64,000 nucleotides of DNA from Mesorhizobium sp. CA8 (GTDB taxonomy: Bacteria > Pseudomonadota > Alphaproteobacteria > Rhizobiales > Rhizobiaceae). The stretch is from assembly GCF_020164955.1 (NCBI RefSeq), contig NZ_JAIUHG010000015.1:62001-126000 (forward strand), given 5' to 3'. The position numbers were made by a program, and so were the translations under genes. Shown here one piece after another: positions 13,232 to 61,473 of the stretch. A model generated the notes under the pieces. It saw nothing but the letters and a program-made list of their open reading frames with translations. It was not told the origin of the DNA and searched no databases. Numbering within the stretch: position 1 is the first letter of the stretch; the number at the start of each line of letters is the position of its first letter.

Positions 13232-14473
13232 TCAGTTCAAAATTCCGTCCATCGAGATCGCCGGCTTGCGGCCGGCGATCAGGTCGGCGGTAATGCGGGC
13301 CGAGCCATGCGACATGGTCCAGCCGATATGGCCGTGCCCGGTGTTGAGATAGAGATTGCTGAGGCGGCGCCGGCCAAATTCAGGCAGATTGTTGGGCGTC
13401 ATCGGCCGCAGGCCCGCCCACATCTCGGCGCGGTCGTAGTCGGCGCCTTCGGGATAGAGCTCCTCGGTCACCCCTTTCATGAAGGCGAAATCGGCCGGTT
13501 TGTGGCTGGTATCGTAACCGGCGAACTCGGCCGTAGCGGTGACGCGCAGCCGGTCGCCGAAGCGCGACACGGCGACCAGATTGTGCTCGTCGATCGCGGC
13601 GATGGTCGGCGGCCGCGGCTGGTTGCCGATCGGAATGGTCAGCGAATAGCCCTTGATCGGATAGATCGGCAAGCTGATGCCGACGGTGCTCGCGACCAGC
13701 GGGCTGTAGGAGCCGAGCGCCAGCACATAGGCGTCGCCCTTGACGCTTCCCTTGTCGGTCAGCACCCGGGCGACATCGTCGCCGGACGTCTCGATGCCGG
13801 TGATGGTCGTGCCGGTGCGGATCTCGCCGCCGCGCGCGGCCACTTTTGCCGCCAGCGCGCGGGTGAATTTCGCCGGATCGCCGGTCTCGTCGGTCGGACA
13901 ATGGATGCCGCCGGCGATTTTTTCCTTGGCGGAAGCCAGCGCCGGATCGAGGGCGACGATGGCGTCGCGGTCGAGCACCTTGATCAGCTGGCCGTCGGAT
14001 TCCAGCAGCTTCATATGCTCGACGCCTTTGTCGAGCGCCTGCTGGCTGCGATAGAAATAGAGGATGCCGCGATCGTTGCGGTCATAGTCTATCGCCTCGT
14101 CGGCGACGACCTCGTGCAGCACGGATTGCGAATAGACGGCGAGCCGATGCTTAAGCAGCGTGTTGCGCCTGGCCTTTTCGGCCGTGCATTCCATCAGGAA
14201 CAGCCATGACCAGCTGTAGAGCCGCGGATCGGCCGAAAGCTTGAAGCGCAGCGCCTGGTCTTTCAGCACCAGTGATTTCAACAGGATCATCGGCGCCCTG
14301 GGCGAGGACCAGACGAAGGAATGCCCCGGCGCGATCATGCCGGCATTGCCCCAGCTGGTTTCGGCGGCGACTTCGGCGCGCCGCTCGAGGATGACGACCT
14401 CGTGCCCGTCCTTCTGCAGCTGATAGGCCGTGGTGACACCGACCACGCCGCCACCCAACACGATCACGCGCAT
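13232..14473 (-). CDS. dadA: D-amino acid dehydrogenase (small subunit type)
   Basis: FAD-dependent membrane-associated oxidase that converts D-amino acids (classically D-Ala) to 2-oxo acids, passing electrons to the respiratory chain. 413 residues from the ATG at 14473, chosen because MRVIVLGGGVVGVTTAYQL puts the FAD dinucleotide motif at the N-terminus as in the family. Other family blocks are present: TSWGNAGMI, GDAYVLALGSYSP, PIYPIKGYSLTI and the C-terminal LNTGHGHIGWTMSHGS. Paired with the downstream racemase-superfamily gene. No alanine racemase dadX is nearby. Confidence 0.92.
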   Translation of the reverse strand: MRVIVLGGGVVGVTTAYQLQKDGHEVVILERRAEVAAETSWGNAGMIAPGHSFVWSSPRAPMILLKSLVLKDQALRFKLSADPRLYSWSWLFLMECTAEKARRNTLLKHRLAVYSQSVLHEVVADEAIDYDRNDRGILYFYRSQQALDKGVEHMKLLESDGQLIKVLDRDAIVALDPALASAKEKIAGGIHCPTDETGDPAKFTRALAAKVAARGGEIRTGTTITGIETSGDDVARVLTDKGSVKGDAYVLALGSYSPLVASTVGISLPIYPIKGYSLTIPIGNQPRPPTIAAIDEHNLVAVSRFGDRLRVTATAEFAGYDTSHKPADFAFMKGVTEELYPEGADYDRAEMWAGLRPMTPNNLPEFGRRRLSNLYLNTGHGHIGWTMSHGSARITADLIAGRKPAISMDGILN

Positions 14474-14596
14474 GGCGCCTCCGGAGATCGCAAGTTGGGG
14501 CAGTTTAGAGGGTGGATGGCGGCGCGCAATGGCACACATACCGAGAGGTCAGCGGGACAGCGCCCCTCGTAGTCAGGGCGATGCAAATGGCGCTTC

Positions 14597-14659
14597 GTCA
14601 TTCTAGGGCGGAGCAAGGAGCGAAGCGACGCGCGCAGACCCTAGAATCCATGCCATGAC
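14597..14659. repeat. Family A arm, left end of the GIY-YIG cassette
   Basis: 63 bases, itself an imperfect palindrome bounded by ATTCTAGGG and CCCTAGAAT with a GC-rich interior, followed by CCATGCCATGAC. It is the inverted copy of 15038-15100 with 2 mismatches in 63. Confidence 0.92.
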
Positions 14660-14721
14660 ATTGGCCATAGAATGCAACGGTCCGGAATAGCGGCTGGCAA
14701 TGGCGCCAGATAGGTCGCGAC

Positions 14722-15009
14722 ATGACAGGTTACGTCTACATGACCGCAAGCCAGAAGGGCGGCACGATCTATATCGGTGTCACCAATGACCTTGCGCGTC
14801 GCATGCCTGAGCACAACAATGGCCAAGGTTCCAGCTTCACCAGCCGTTACGGTGTGCAGCGTCTCGTCTGGTACGAGGAATATTTCGACATCGCTGATGC
14901 CATCCAGCGTGAGACGTCACTGAAACGCTGGCCTCGCCGATGGAAGGTCGAGCTGATAGAGAATGCCAACCCGGAATGGTTCGAGCTGTTTCGCGGGATC
15001 GGCTGGTGA
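14722..15009 (+). CDS. GIY-YIG nuclease domain protein
   Basis: 95 residues, the size of stand-alone GIY-YIG proteins (UPF0213/YhbQ-like, UvrC-N-terminal fold). The motif is seen as YVYM (4-7) and IYIGVT (16-21), with the conserved Arg at 26/27 (LARRM), and Glu and hydrophobic positions in YEEYFDIADAIQRETSLKRW; the C-terminal WFELFRGIGW is typical of the rhizobial group. The protein is expected to be a metal-dependent DNA nuclease. Uniquely in this window the gene lies between two inverted family A arms (14597-14659 and 15038-15100), so gene and arms form a 504-bp unit. Confidence 0.88.
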   Translation: MTGYVYMTASQKGGTIYIGVTNDLARRMPEHNNGQGSSFTSRYGVQRLVWYEEYFDIADAIQRETSLKRWPRRWKVELIENANPEWFELFRGIGW

Positions 15010-15037
15010 GCGTTCTGAACCGTGGTAGCTCTCAACC

Positions 15038-15100
15038 GTCACGGCATGGATTCTAGGGTCTTCGCGCGTCGCTTCGCTCCTTGCTCCGCCCTAGAATGAC
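15038..15100. repeat. Family A arm, right end of the GIY-YIG cassette
   Basis: 63-base inverted copy of the left arm at 14597-14659 (61 of 63 identical after reverse-complementing). It starts 28 bases after the GIY-YIG stop codon. Confidence 0.92.
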
Positions 15101-15123
15101 GAAGGACAGGTTGGCGAGACAAC

Positions 15124-15283
15124 ACCCCCTCTGCCCTGCCGGGCATCTCCCCTGCAAGGGGGGAGATTAGCAGCTCCGCCGGCGGCGCCTTTCCTGCAAC
15201 GTCGATGATTCGCGAAAGCGGTCGCGACATCCAATCTCCCCCCTTGCGGGGGAGATGGCCAGCAGGCCAGAGGGGGGTGTGAC
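15124..15283. repeat. Family C paired palindromic repeat
   Basis: Inverted arms 15124-15171 and 15235-15283 (CCCCCTCTGCCCTGCCGGGC and its partner ending CCAGAGGGGGG) around a core of about 63 bases. With the family A arm it fills the 304-base gap 15010-15313. Confidence 0.85.
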
Positions 15284-15313: not shown

Positions 15314-16480
15314 CTACCCCAGTGCCTGCTCCAGATCCGCGATCAGATCATCGCCGTCCTCGATCCCACACGACAGCCGCACCAGGGAATCCGATATCCC
15401 GATCGCACCGCGCTTTTCCGCTGGGATCGAGCCATGCGTCATCAGCGCCGGGTGCTCGATCAGGCTTTCGACGCCGCCCAGGCTTTCGGCCAAAGTGAAG
15501 AGCTGCGTACGTTCGAGGAAGCGTTTTGTTCCCGTCAGGTCGCGGTCGAGGTCGACCGAGATCATGCCGCCGAAGGCGTGCATTTGCTGGACGGCGATGG
15601 AATGCTGCGGGTGGCTGGCGAGGCCGGGATAGATGACCCGGCGGACATCTCTTCGCGTTTCCAGCCATTGCGCTATTTTCAGGCCGTTGGCCGAATGACG
15701 CTCCATCCTGAGCGCCAGGGTTTTTATACCGCGCAGCGCCAGAAAACTGTCGAACGGGCCGGAAATGGCGCCGATGGCGTTCTGCAGAAATTTCAGCTGG
15801 GCGGCGAGGTCCTTGTTGTCGCCGACGACCGCCACGCCGCCGACCATGTCGGAATGGCCGTTGAGATATTTCGTCGTCGAATGCACGACGATGTCGATGC
15901 CGAGCTCCAGCGGGCGCTGGATATAGGGGCTGCAGAAGGTGTTGTCGGCGACGGTGAGCAGCCCCTTGCGTTTGGCCAGGGCGGCGACCGCTTCGAGATC
16001 GACGATGCGCAGCAGCGGGTTGGTCGGCGTCTCGACCCAGAGCAGTTTTGTTTCCGGGCGGATCGCAGCCTCGACCGCGGCGAGGTCGGTGAAGTCGGCA
16101 AAACTCACCTGGAGGCCTGCCGAGCGCTTGCGCACCCGCTCCATCAGGCGGAACGAGCCGCCATAGATGTCGTCGGTGGCGACGATATGGGCGCCGGCAT
16201 CGAGGAGCTCGAGCACCGTGCCGATCGCCGCCAGGCCGGAGGCGAAGGCGAAAGCAGCCGAGCCGCTCTCGAGGTCTGCCACCGCGCGCTCGAAGGCAAA
16301 GCGCGTCGGGTTCTGGCTGCGGGCGTACTCAAAACCCTTGTGCACGCCGGGCGACTGCTGGCGGTAGGTGGAGGTGGCATAGATCGGCACCATCACGGCG
16401 CCGGTCAGCGGATCGTGGCTCTGGCCGCCATGGATGGCGCGGGTGGAAAAGGCCAGGCGGTTCTTGCCGTTCGAAGTCAT
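15314..16480 (-). CDS. Cystathionine gamma-lyase/gamma-synthase family PLP enzyme
   Basis: 388 residues, Cys/Met-metabolism PLP fold type I. Family blocks: YARSQNPTRFAFERAVADLE, FASGLAAI, ETPTNPLL, and the PLP-lysine motif HSTTKYLNGHSD. The C-terminal PGLASHPQH and FGGMISVDL also fit. Gamma-lyase, gamma-synthase and beta-lyase are hard to separate by sequence; the ATGA overlap with the upstream cystathionine beta-synthase gene argues for the gamma-lyase role in reverse transsulfuration (homocysteine to cystathionine to cysteine). Confidence 0.9.
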   Translation of the reverse strand: MTSNGKNRLAFSTRAIHGGQSHDPLTGAVMVPIYATSTYRQQSPGVHKGFEYARSQNPTRFAFERAVADLESGSAAFAFASGLAAIGTVLELLDAGAHIVATDDIYGGSFRLMERVRKRSAGLQVSFADFTDLAAVEAAIRPETKLLWVETPTNPLLRIVDLEAVAALAKRKGLLTVADNTFCSPYIQRPLELGIDIVVHSTTKYLNGHSDMVGGVAVVGDNKDLAAQLKFLQNAIGAISGPFDSFLALRGIKTLALRMERHSANGLKIAQWLETRRDVRRVIYPGLASHPQHSIAVQQMHAFGGMISVDLDRDLTGTKRFLERTQLFTLAESLGGVESLIEHPALMTHGSIPAEKRGAIGISDSLVRLSCGIEDGDDLIADLEQALG

Positions 16481-22535: not shown

Positions 22536-22694
22536 CGTTCTCTCACTCCCAATGTTGATAAGATTACTATACTAAGCAGCCCGGGCACGAAACCGCAGTT
22601 CCAATTGCCGCGCCATTTGCGGCATGGATTTGCCGAGATGGGATGATGAGCGGATTTTTCGTTCGACTGGCATCCGGCGGCCTACTACATCTTC

Positions 22695-22900
22695 GTCATT
22701 CTAGGGCGGAGCGACGCGAAGCGGAGCGTAGACCCTGGAATCCATGACGTTACCTTCGCGAGAGATGCAGCGGTTGAGAATGGAACTCCGTCGAACCTGT
22801 CTGAAAAGATAGTTCTGCACCGCCGCATCGCTCCTGTGTCACGGCATGGATTCTAGGGTCTGCGCGCGTCGCTTCGCTCCTTGCTCCGCCCTAGAGTGAC
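22695..22900. repeat. Family A inverted pair without a gene
   Basis: Left arm 22695-22748 and right arm 22838-22900 are inverted family A copies; the 89-base core has no open reading frame. This is the layout of the GIY-YIG cassette at 14597-15100 minus the gene. Confidence 0.88.
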
Positions 22901-23118
22901 GACCTGAGGGACGGCTCCGCCAATCCCAAGGGCGACCGAAGGTGCAGCAGGCGTCCTCCCCCGCTATCCGCGACCGTCCTTTTGCGCCCATTCCGTCGGT
23001 ACCCGGTGACACTTTTCCAACAATGCGCCCTTCGTTGGAAGGATGTAACTCTACAAACTAAATAGAATTAGCAGACGATAGAAAGGCAATCCAGTTTCAG
23101 GGGTTATGGAGCCTTTCA
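22901..23118 (+). promoter_or_regulatory. Upstream control region of tauA
   Basis: Contains a perfect 7-bp inverted repeat TTCCAAC (23015-23021) / GTTGGAA (23034-23040), then a LysR-type dyad CTCTA-N9-TAGAA at 23049-23067, which matches the dyad upstream of ssuA in 18 of 22 core positions. The dyad centre lies about 60 bases before the tauA ATG. With the leader ORF and the repeat pair, this accounts for the 692-base gap 22427-23118. Confidence 0.55.
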
Positions 23119-38062: not shown

Positions 38063-38097
38063 AGACGTCGGAGATTGGCGAAAACCTCCGCGCGGTC

Positions 38098-38252
38098 GTC
38101 ATTCCAGGGCGGAGCAAGGAGCGGAGCGACGCGCGCAGACCCTGGAATCCATGCCGTTAAGCCAATGCGTTGCAACGGTTACAGAATTCTGCTCCGTTGC
38201 ACCCTACGGCAACGGGCACGGCATGGATACTCGGGTCAAGCCCGAGTATGAC
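38098..38252. repeat. Mixed family A / family B inverted pair
   Basis: Left family A arm (38098-38160, CCAGGG variant), a 55-base core with GCGTTGCAACGG and ACAGAATTCTG, and a right family B arm (38216-38252) with ACTCGGGTCAAGCCCGAGT. Its mirror image in layout and core is at 57335-57490. Confidence 0.88.
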
Positions 38253-38304
38253 GACGTCACGGAGGTTTTGGCCAATCTCCAACGTCAGCGCCAACAGCGC
38301 CCGC

Positions 38305-57275: not shown

Positions 57276-57334
57276 GCCAGGTGGGTTAGCACGGGGCGGA
57301 GGCCGAGTGAACGGAGAAGCGGCCGGCCTCTCTC

Positions 57335-57490
57335 GTCATTCTCGGGCTTGACCCGAGAATCCATGCCGTGACCTCTGTCGAGGGCGCAAGGGTGCAGAAT
57401 ATTCTGTAACTGCTGCAACGCCTTAACGCCACGGCATGGATTCTAGGGTCTACGCGCGTCGCTCCGCTCCTTGCTCCGCCTTAGAATGAC
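57335..57490. repeat. Mixed family B / family A inverted pair
   Basis: Left family B arm 57335-57372 (ATTCTCGGGCTTGACCCGAG), core with CAGAATATTCTGTAAC and CTGCAACGC, right family A arm 57428-57490. It is the mirror image of 38098-38252 and shares its core. Confidence 0.88.
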
Positions 57491-60084: not shown

Positions 60085-61473
60085 ATGGGCGAGCACGTCA
60101 TAAAGCTTCCCGATGTCGGCGAAGGCGTCGCCGAGGCCGAGCTTGTCGAGTGGCACGTCAAGGTCGGCGACCTTGTGCGCGAGGACACGGTTCTCGCCGC
60201 CGTCATGACCGACAAGGCAACCGTCGAAATCCCCTCGCCGGTCGACGGCGAGATCCTGTGGCTGGGCGCCGAGATCGGCGACACGGTGGCGATCGGCTCG
60301 CCGATCGTGCGGCTGAAGGTGGCCGGCGAAGGCAATGTGAAAAACACGTCGCCAGGCGAGAGTGGTGCCGACGGCATGCCCGCTGGGGCGAGCCATGGCG
60401 ATCGTCTTCCCCTCCAGCCTGCGCAAGACGCAGCGCCGCCATCCTCGGGCTTGTCCCGAGGATCCGCTGGTTCCCCGGAACTGGCGGCGTCGCATCCACG
60501 CAGGTCGGCAGATCCTCGGGACAAGCCCGAGGATGACGGCGTTAAAAAGAATCGCGCCATGCTCAGCCTTTCGGGCGAGCCGCGCGCGGAGGGCAAGAAG
60601 CCGCTTGCCTCGCCTGCCGTCCGCCTGCGCGCCAAGGAAGCCGGCATCGATCTGCGCCAAGTGACGGGCAGCGGTCCGGCCGGGCGCATCAGCCATGAGG
60701 ACATCGACGCGTTCCTCGCGCGCGGCCCGCAAGTCGCCCGCCCCACCGGACTTGCCCGGAAGGACGGCGTCGAGGACATCAAGGTCGTCGGTCTCCGGCG
60801 CAAGATCGCCGAAAAGATGTCGCTGGCGAAATCGCGCATCCCGCATATCACCTATGTCGAGGAGATCGACGTCACCGCATTGGAAGAATTGCGGGCAACC
60901 CTCAACAAGGAGAAGCGCGGCGCCAAGGGGACGGAAAGGCCCAAGCTGACGCTGCTGCCATTCCTGATGCGGGCGATGGTTAAGGCGATTGGCGAGCAGC
61001 CGAACCTCAACGCCTTGTTCGACGACGATGCCGGCATCATCCACCGATATGAAGGCATCCACATCGGCATCGCCGCGCAGACGACGAACGGGCTGGTGGT
61101 GCCGGTCGTGAAACATGCCGAGGCGCGCGACCTGTGGGATTGTGCGGCAGAGGTCAACCGGCTGGCCGATGCGGCCAAGGCCGGCACGGCGAGCCGCGAG
61201 GAGCTTTCCGGCTCGACCATCACCATCACCTCGCTCGGCGCCATGGGCGGCTTGGCGACGACGCCGGTCATCAACTACCCGGAAGTGGCGATCGTCGGCG
61301 TCAACAAGATGATGGTGCGGCCGGTGTGGGACGGCACGCAGTTCATCCCGCGCAAGATGATGAACCTGTCGTCCAGCTTCGACCACCGCGTCATCGACGG
61401 CTGGGATGCCGCGGTGTTCGTGCAGCGCATCAAGGCGCTGCTGGAGACGCCGGCGCTGATCTTTGTGGATTGA
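60085..61473 (+). CDS. bkdB: Branched-chain 2-oxoacid dehydrogenase E2 (dihydrolipoyl acyltransferase) with an in-frame repeat insertion
   Basis: 462 residues from the ATG at 60085. Lipoyl domain 1-80 with the lipoylated Lys44 in MTDKATVEIP; peripheral subunit-binding domain about 174-211 (LASPAVRLRAKEAGIDLRQV); acyltransferase domain about 225-462 ending with the catalytic DHRVIDGWDAA. The linker between lipoyl and binding domains contains a family B inverted repeat pair read in frame (about residues 119-151, SSGLSRGS ... DPRDKPEDDG). Linkers tolerate length change, so the enzyme is expected to work. Confidence 0.95.
   Translation: MGEHVIKLPDVGEGVAEAELVEWHVKVGDLVREDTVLAAVMTDKATVEIPSPVDGEILWLGAEIGDTVAIGSPIVRLKVAGEGNVKNTSPGESGADGMPAGASHGDRLPLQPAQDAAPPSSGLSRGSAGSPELAASHPRRSADPRDKPEDDGVKKNRAMLSLSGEPRAEGKKPLASPAVRLRAKEAGIDLRQVTGSGPAGRISHEDIDAFLARGPQVARPTGLARKDGVEDIKVVGLRRKIAEKMSLAKSRIPHITYVEEIDVTALEELRATLNKEKRGAKGTERPKLTLLPFLMRAMVKAIGEQPNLNALFDDDAGIIHRYEGIHIGIAAQTTNGLVVPVVKHAEARDLWDCAAEVNRLADAAKAGTASREELSGSTITITSLGAMGGLATTPVINYPEVAIVGVNKMMVRPVWDGTQFIPRKMMNLSSSFDHRVIDGWDAAVFVQRIKALLETPALIFVD
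60438..60537. repeat. Family B inverted pair inside bkdB
   Basis: Arms 60438-60470 (CATCCTCGGGCTTGTCCCGA) and 60509-60537 (TCGGGACAAGCCCGAGGATG) in inverted orientation around about 38 bases. The same palindrome type forms one arm of the elements at 38216-38252 and 57335-57372. Confidence 0.9.

Follow-up and report, generated by a model that had tools for sequence, protein, structure and literature searches.

A GIY-YIG nuclease gene between inverted CGTC-tagged palindromes as a putative REPIN-like unit of Mesorhizobium

REPINs consist of high-copy paired palindromes, with gene-less dependents and with a gene that is flanked by the same palindromes. A pairing of a different enzyme with a repeat is said to exist in Neisseria, where a 2025 study by Chenal and colleagues in Nat Commun reportedly identified Ssn as site-specific single-strand GIY-YIG nucleases, acting on the NTS/dRS3 repeat and modulating transformation. 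The CGTC REPs were described by Di Nocera et al. (2013; PMC3733652). According to the available part of that paper, they have a CGTC, TGTC, or CCTC tag, a stem of 8-9 bp that starts with AT, a loop of mostly 4-5 nt (some members have other loops), and a CCA tail, and they are mostly paired. The same part places them mainly in Alphaproteobacteria, where they are common, as well as in Neisseria and Rickettsia, equates neisserial CGTC-1 with dRS3, and names Neisseria, Azospirillum lipoferum, Novosphingobium aromaticivorans, and Sinorhizobium meliloti as carriers; within it, no dedicated transposase gene was found for the superfamily in 2013. In the accessible part of another paper (PMC12306157), CGTC was found once, in the reference list. 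A literature search limited to titles and abstract openings returned nothing that linked GIY-YIG genes to CGTC REPs, and we make no claim that the pairing is unpublished.

We analyzed a GIY-YIG gene and its flanking palindromes in a window, meaning the whole stretch of 64,000 nucleotides of Mesorhizobium DNA under study (Table 1). An inverted-repeat search of the window confirmed the inverted arms around the gene that a sequence-only reading had described; they are 67 nt each, 97% complementary, and 378 nt apart, and the 63-nt arms of that reading are their core. Each arm was laid out as CTTCGTC, ATTCTAGGG, a loop of about 31 nt, CCCTAGAAT, and CCAT, and the internal palindrome proposed for each arm was real, its 9-bp stem lying between CGTC and CCAT. 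A single arm folded with no excess stability over dinucleotide shuffles (z -0.5 and -0.3). The GIY-YIG gene had been called the only gene between the arms, and it was indeed the sole forward ORF of at least 60 aa there and also the longest; two reverse ORFs of 61 and 62 aa overlapped the inter-arm stretch. The protein matched PF01541 (GIY-YIG) over residues 3-75 (E 4.2e-17) and, by sequence, the UPF0213 GIY-YIG structures 1zg2 (E 2.2e-7) and 1ywl (E 2.5e-5), with no match in NCBIfam or in PHROG, the latter ruling out a phage family. Y17, R27, E64, and N83, catalytic residues by analogy with the GIY-YIG family, were invariant across 16 aligned sequences, and the structure prediction (mean pLDDT 58) was too low for use. 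The neighbor at 13232-14539 (reverse) is presumably FAD-oxidoreductase-like and that at 15314-16480 (reverse) presumably cystathionine-lyase-like, both names being inferred from the translations. A known RNA family was rejected, as only a tRNA was detected in the window at gathering score, and plasmid spread of this very unit was rejected as well, no plasmid record matching it at 1e-20.

Table 1. Coordinates of the unit, its parts, and related palindromes in the window
Feature	Position	Strand	Remark
Whole unit, proposed autonomous element	14593..15104	+	512 bp
Left arm, CGTC-tagged palindrome	14593..14659	+	tag CTTCGTC, stem ATTCTAGGG/CCCTAGAAT, tail CCAT
95-aa GIY-YIG nuclease gene	14722..15009	+	ORF and PF01541 match
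Right arm, inverted copy	15038..15104	-	outward-pointing tag
Second, unrelated inverted repeat, GGGGGAGAT...CAGAGGGGG family	15125..15276	.	close beside the unit
Gene-less inverted arm pair, REPIN-like relative of the unit	22692..22902	.	about 211 bp
Gene-less pair, diverged	38097..38253	.	unlike arms ATTCCAGGG / ATACTCGGG
Gene-less diverged inverted pair	57334..57490	.	
Lone CGTC hairpin	60512..60538	-	ATCCTCGGG

Compared with REPIN/RAYT systems, the locus was alike in its high-copy paired palindromes, its gene-less dependents, and its gene placed between the same palindromes, but GIY-YIG stands here in place of an HUH/Y1 transposase and the tag is CGTC instead of GTAG. The unit works like a REPIN system but is no RAYT system, two defining features being unmet. 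Like Ssn, the enzyme is a small GIY-YIG protein, and its N. gonorrhoeae relative lies among dRS3-type hairpins (the Ssn sequence itself was not compared); unlike Ssn, in Mesorhizobium it is part of a discrete unit that has long arms, occurs in many copies, is accompanied by dependents, and is polymorphic in its sites. The sequence-only reading knew of no characterized system of this kind, which needs correction in that the paired class has probably been described already in Neisseria, as Ssn. If the Ssn relatives include these proteins, the nuclease-repeat pairing would be known, and what is new would be the anatomy of the mobile unit, the dependents that lack the gene, the polymorphism of the sites, and the residues linked to arm type. 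With the CGTC REP superfamily, the arms shared an unpaired CGTC tag at one end, a stem (ATTCTAGGG/CCCTAGAAT) that begins with AT, falls in the 8-9 bp range, and is followed by CCAT, and a high copy number, often as outward pairs. They differed in their loop length, mostly 4-5 nt in the available part of PMC3733652, and in having a GIY-YIG gene as the usual neighbor, where that part of the paper has no dedicated transposase gene. The assignment to a REPIN-like family was supported, with the correction that the arms are those of the published CGTC REP superfamily (PMC3733652, as far as its available text goes) and not RAYT-paired GTAG REPs.

A contig scan found 239 relatives of the gene, and the best 80 were kept (by record title, 74 Mesorhizobium, 3 Aminobacter, 1 Oryzicola, and 2 'Bacterium'). 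Inverted arms with a score of at least 35 flanked the gene in 74 of these best 80 loci, usually at about -130..-64 and +32..+98 relative to the gene; two of the six loci without qualifying arms were near a contig end. Same-type units within one genome (20 pairs; one genome's pair was left out, its locus being too short) were 82-95% identical, while their 290-bp flanks were 47-64% identical, against a baseline of 53% for unrelated sequence with the same aligner. These similar units with discrete ends lie amid unrelated flanks, and the unit has therefore dispersed; judged from these alignments, the unit of about 505 bp is a dispersed family in Mesorhizobium. There were no identical copies among the 20 pairs, the closest being 95% identical, and no movement was seen. 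The dN/dS ratio was about 0.05 over the 2139 pairs kept after pairs with dS up to 0.05 or undefined had been left out, dS being near 1 and the estimate hence rough; by this measure, the protein is under purifying selection.

We found the gene at E 1e-8 in 52 of 99 genus genomes; a genome could have as many as nine matches, and broken copies were numerous. Arms occurred with the gene in 50 genomes and without it in 40, and the genomes without arms were split 2/7 (one-sided Fisher p 0.058). After-the-fact removal of two divergent matches (41% and 56% identity) gave 50/40 versus 0/9 (p 0.0012), but p 0.058 is the unselected figure and the lower value follows this post hoc dropping. The number of gene matches correlated with that of arm candidates (Spearman 0.52), the median being 48 arm candidates with the gene and 25 without (p 2e-4); these arm counts are first-look candidates, not scored copies. 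Since the gene was missing at E 1e-8 from 40 of the 90 arm-bearing genomes, the arms persist without it.

That arms recur in the window without the gene was borne out by three pairs and one lone hairpin (Table 1). The best other arms in the same genome matched at about 1e-22 to 1e-26, and the arm pattern, with one mismatch allowed, had 35 copies there and 0 when reversed, a recurrence far beyond chance. The pattern had 89-190 copies in six other genomes, all picked for arm richness, and 0 copies in seven genomes that an earlier search had selected as arm-free; because these seven were preselected for absence, the zeros are not independent evidence. When the 504-bp unit was compared with its own genome, at least 115 matching pieces were obtained and 40 of 61 first-look places were scored, revealing a single intact unit, another that is degenerate (C45:263518-264011, 75%), and numerous arms. 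Nineteen places were extracted as inverted pairs; both stems were readable by rule in 14, and the stems were unlike in 8 of these 14 gene-less pairs. Seven genus regions (447,555 bp, window included) held 25 outward arm pairs, one of 56 bp and the others in two size classes, 16 of 156-220 bp and 8 of 491-517 bp. The gene was inside all eight long pairs (in pieces in G124) and in neither the 16 shorter ones nor the 56-bp pair, and a ninth gene copy, in G036, lay between arms of which one fails the stem rule. At one locus (L142, genome G131), a window-type arm was paired with a short-loop arm, ATACTCGGGCTTGACCTGAGTAT, and this hybrid suggests recombination between REP families.

Of 146 genus genomes, 64 contained the flank that lies upstream of the window unit, and the comparison covered 30 loci. 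As the sequence-only reading had anticipated, relatives differed at this site. Gene and arms were present in eight loci (the own genome, G023, G059, G132, G114, G048, G036, and G137), with a lone palindrome in G106, an unlike-arm pair in G131, and no arm match in the other 20, many of which carry a GGGGGAGAT-type repeat at that point. The second repeat of the window, which reads GGGGGAGAT ... GGCAGG.CAGAGGGGG, fills the intergenic point of the unit in many relatives instead. At the orthologous site in G137 (L149), about 0.9 kb of other sequence separates the left arm from the GIY-YIG gene, and the unit may have received an insertion there. The site at 38097-38253 held a gene-less pair in the own genome and in G048, and a 517-bp gene-bearing unit in G036. 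Another pair, in G023, had no counterpart in G048 or G124, where about ten bases take its place, and in the other three regions the sequence there was different. Since these intergenic points are also occupied by other palindromes, it was difficult to identify clean empty sites.

Units were often neighbored by other palindromic repeats. A GGCAGG.CAGAG-type palindrome was found in 15 of 46 flanks of ATTCTAGGG-type units versus 0 of 46 control stretches, and a GATTGGC-type repeat in 25 of 96 flanks of other unit types versus 5 of 96 controls; these motifs were chosen after the flanks had been seen, and the controls were not matched for coding. The bases before the tag were C-rich and ended in CTT (72 loci; -3 C 0.81, -2 T 0.92, -1 T 0.99). 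At the same 72 loci, no 6-nt direct repeat was observed (control mean 0.0) and direct repeats of 3-5 nt were within the range of shuffles, 8 of the 80 loci having been left out for tags not both delimited or for short flanks. A classical insertion sequence was ruled out by this lack of target site duplication.

Arm type and protein were then compared in the 68 units with both arms readable (12 of the 80 loci were left out); 23 had ATTCTAGGG in both arms, 27 ATCCTAGGG, and 5 ATCCACGGG, and 13 were mixed or other. All 23 proteins of ATTCTAGGG type had A25 and T65, while the full-length proteins of ATCCTAGGG type had G25 in 25 of 25 and K65 in 24 of 25. Two or three arm types coexisted in seven of eight genomes listed, and every readable unit in these eight except L076 had a matched pair of its own type (L056 was unreadable). 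Protein distance correlated with arm distance (Mantel r 0.24 left, 0.45 right), values reached by none of 2000 permutations. The match of arm type and residue is linkage by descent and by itself no proof of recognition. Only 24 of 68 left arms had the right arm of the same unit as their best match, which counts against tight homogenization. Residues 25 and 65 are candidate specificity residues, and nature offers many nuclease-repeat pairs with different stems.

Beyond the genus, a profile built from 16 proteins detected relatives, with a cut-off of 1e-10, in 102 of 337 class genomes and 105 of 398 phylum genomes. CGTC hairpins lay near these genes, their stems varying by locus and often agreeing on both sides. 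The flank-to-flank inverted repeat was above the maximum of 153 mispaired controls in 27 of 51 loci (two of the 27 are Mesorhizobium; 2 of 53 loci were dropped for short flanks). At 51 loci outside the genus (two Mesorhizobium loci left out), we counted 3.05 hairpins/kb within 300 bp versus 0.20 beyond 600 bp, with 19 loci outward on both sides, 17 with some, and 15 with no tagged hairpin nearby. Under another hairpin rule, the densities were 4.00 versus 0.25/kb at 20 loci, nearly all paralogue sets (11/7/2 for both sides outward/some/none), 4.26 versus 0.37/kb at 27 loci outside the class (11/15/1), and 3.33 versus 0.67/kb at 13 further class loci (4/4/5). In DNA outside ORFs of 120 codons at 60 loci, the values were 6.51 versus 0.34/kb (99 versus 3 hairpins, so that the far-intergenic figure rests on only 3). 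Elsewhere in the phylum, including N. gonorrhoeae, CGTC REPs are thus about 20 times as dense beside related genes as in the intergenic background. The tallies are not fully independent, as L226 and L157 are the same gene, as are L234 and L192, and L249 and L250, which hold two genes each, were each counted as one. Coincidence of gene and arms was ruled out by the 74 of 80 relatives, the mispaired flank controls, and the intergenic control; with the eight of eight long pairs and the intergenic densities, GIY-YIG genes proved far commoner beside arms than background, as the sequence-only reading required.

Relatives were present in 33 plasmid-collection records, from which twelve named loci were picked for variety. 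One or more tagged hairpins lay within 300 bp in 10 of the twelve, including N. gonorrhoeae (six hairpins), Azospirillum lipoferum, Novosphingobium aromaticivorans, and Sinorhizobium meliloti; the case of Rhizobium tumorigenes was weak. In N. gonorrhoeae, the relative shares 47% identity with the query across 98% of its length. No tagged hairpin was found at the two of these twelve loci that came from other phyla (Planktothrix and Spirosoma), and the pairing of gene and REP was observed within the phylum only. Distant relatives mostly numbered one to a few genes per genome, and paralogues in one genome had different REPs. Of the other GIY-YIG genes in the window's own genome, L010 had no hairpin in its locus and L011 had one, some 900 bp away. 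On the A. lipoferum plasmid AZO_p3 (L307), a related gene with CGTC hairpins lies between sufB and sufC of an Fe-S assembly cluster, and on the Planktothrix agardhii plasmid p1 (L310), the hairpin-free gene lies between an MmeI-type restriction gene and DISARM drmA. The 'plasmid' records of N. gonorrhoeae (L306, 2.17 Mb) and Aeromonas caviae (L313, 4.9 Mb) are chromosome-sized and may be misfiled.

We further searched eight arm-bearing genomes for PF01797 (Y1/RAYT transposase) and found it in none, the control search being positive in 5 of 14 genomes. RAYT-driven spread was thereby rejected for these eight genomes, and in the absence of a Y1 transposase, the only kind sought, the GIY-YIG gene is the best candidate. 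The reading toward which we lean, with some reserve, is that a REPIN-like selfish CGTC REP family has the 512-bp unit as its gene-bearing member, which spreads by arm cutting and copying repair. The GIY-YIG protein would recognize the CGTC-tagged hairpin of its own arms when single-stranded, on the lagging strand or extruded, and would cut there. Host repair of the cut, templated by another copy or by an excised strand, may then insert the unit, or an arm pair without the gene, within or next to other palindromes, and the gene-less pairs of 156-220 bp would be dependents. The cutting, the single-strand preference, the repair step, and the movement of the unit are all inferred, the single-strand preference by analogy with what is reported for Ssn of Neisseria. 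It speaks against this reading that GIY-YIG enzymes are not known to join DNA by themselves. As far as sequence goes, the arm-gene tie and the site differences supported the unit as the autonomous member of such a family. Several points count against a selfish unit: the lack of seen movement, the 40 of 90 arm-bearing genomes free of the gene, the 15 of 51 hairpin-free loci outside the genus together with Planktothrix and Spirosoma, the unlike stems in 8 of 14 own-genome pairs, the 24 of 68 self-matching arms, and the lone arm that is not unusually stable.

A further such point, the many distant relatives with one to a few genes beside REPs, fits a host-serving single-strand nuclease of the Ssn kind, which would cut REPs on single strands that enter the cell or become exposed and would thereby tune recombination or DNA uptake. 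Its own REPs would then adjoin the gene through joint inheritance of gene and targets, not through movement of a unit. This explanation draws on the frequent position of those few genes beside the REP type, in N. gonorrhoeae among others, and on the action reportedly exerted by Ssn on NTS/dRS3 and on transformation. We consider it unlikely while still credible, for the Mesorhizobium gene has been repeatedly dispersed with its arms to unrelated sites and left many broken copies, which is the behavior of selfish DNA, and the paralogues of one genome lie beside different REPs. Single-strand excision and insertion in the manner of IS200/IS605 or RAYT, with GIY-YIG replacing the HUH transposase and without copying repair, would account for the palindromic ends, the absence of target duplication, and the shared C-rich context before the tag. 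It is improbable, as GIY-YIG chemistry is not known to make a covalent protein-DNA link for re-joining the ends, and as the alternation of gene-bearing and gene-less states at one site is a better fit to conversion. That the gene is a mere passenger of arms moved by another transposase is hardly tenable, for all that it is missing at E 1e-8 from 40 of 90 arm-bearing genomes, because it occupies eight of eight long pairs, no Y1 was found in eight arm-bearing genomes (other transposases are not excluded), and the same association, with different stems, is seen in several of the phylum's classes.

On the reading of a selfish family that spreads by arm cutting and copying repair, the unit would be a selfish element of simple build whose enzyme is not a transposase. 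We also advance, tentatively and as slightly less likely than not, the broader proposal that GIY-YIG nucleases are the dedicated mobilizers of CGTC REPs across Proteobacteria and perhaps beyond. They would form a second REP system, independently evolved in parallel to the GTAG REPs and their RAYTs, of which the Mesorhizobium units would be true autonomous elements that act by hairpin cutting and copying repair. The CGTC REPs were left without an enzyme in 2013, as far as the available part of PMC3733652 goes. As the enzyme so far lacking for the spread or management of these repeats, the GIY-YIG nuclease is a good candidate, and a protein of 95 residues with matched hairpins makes this a testable answer.
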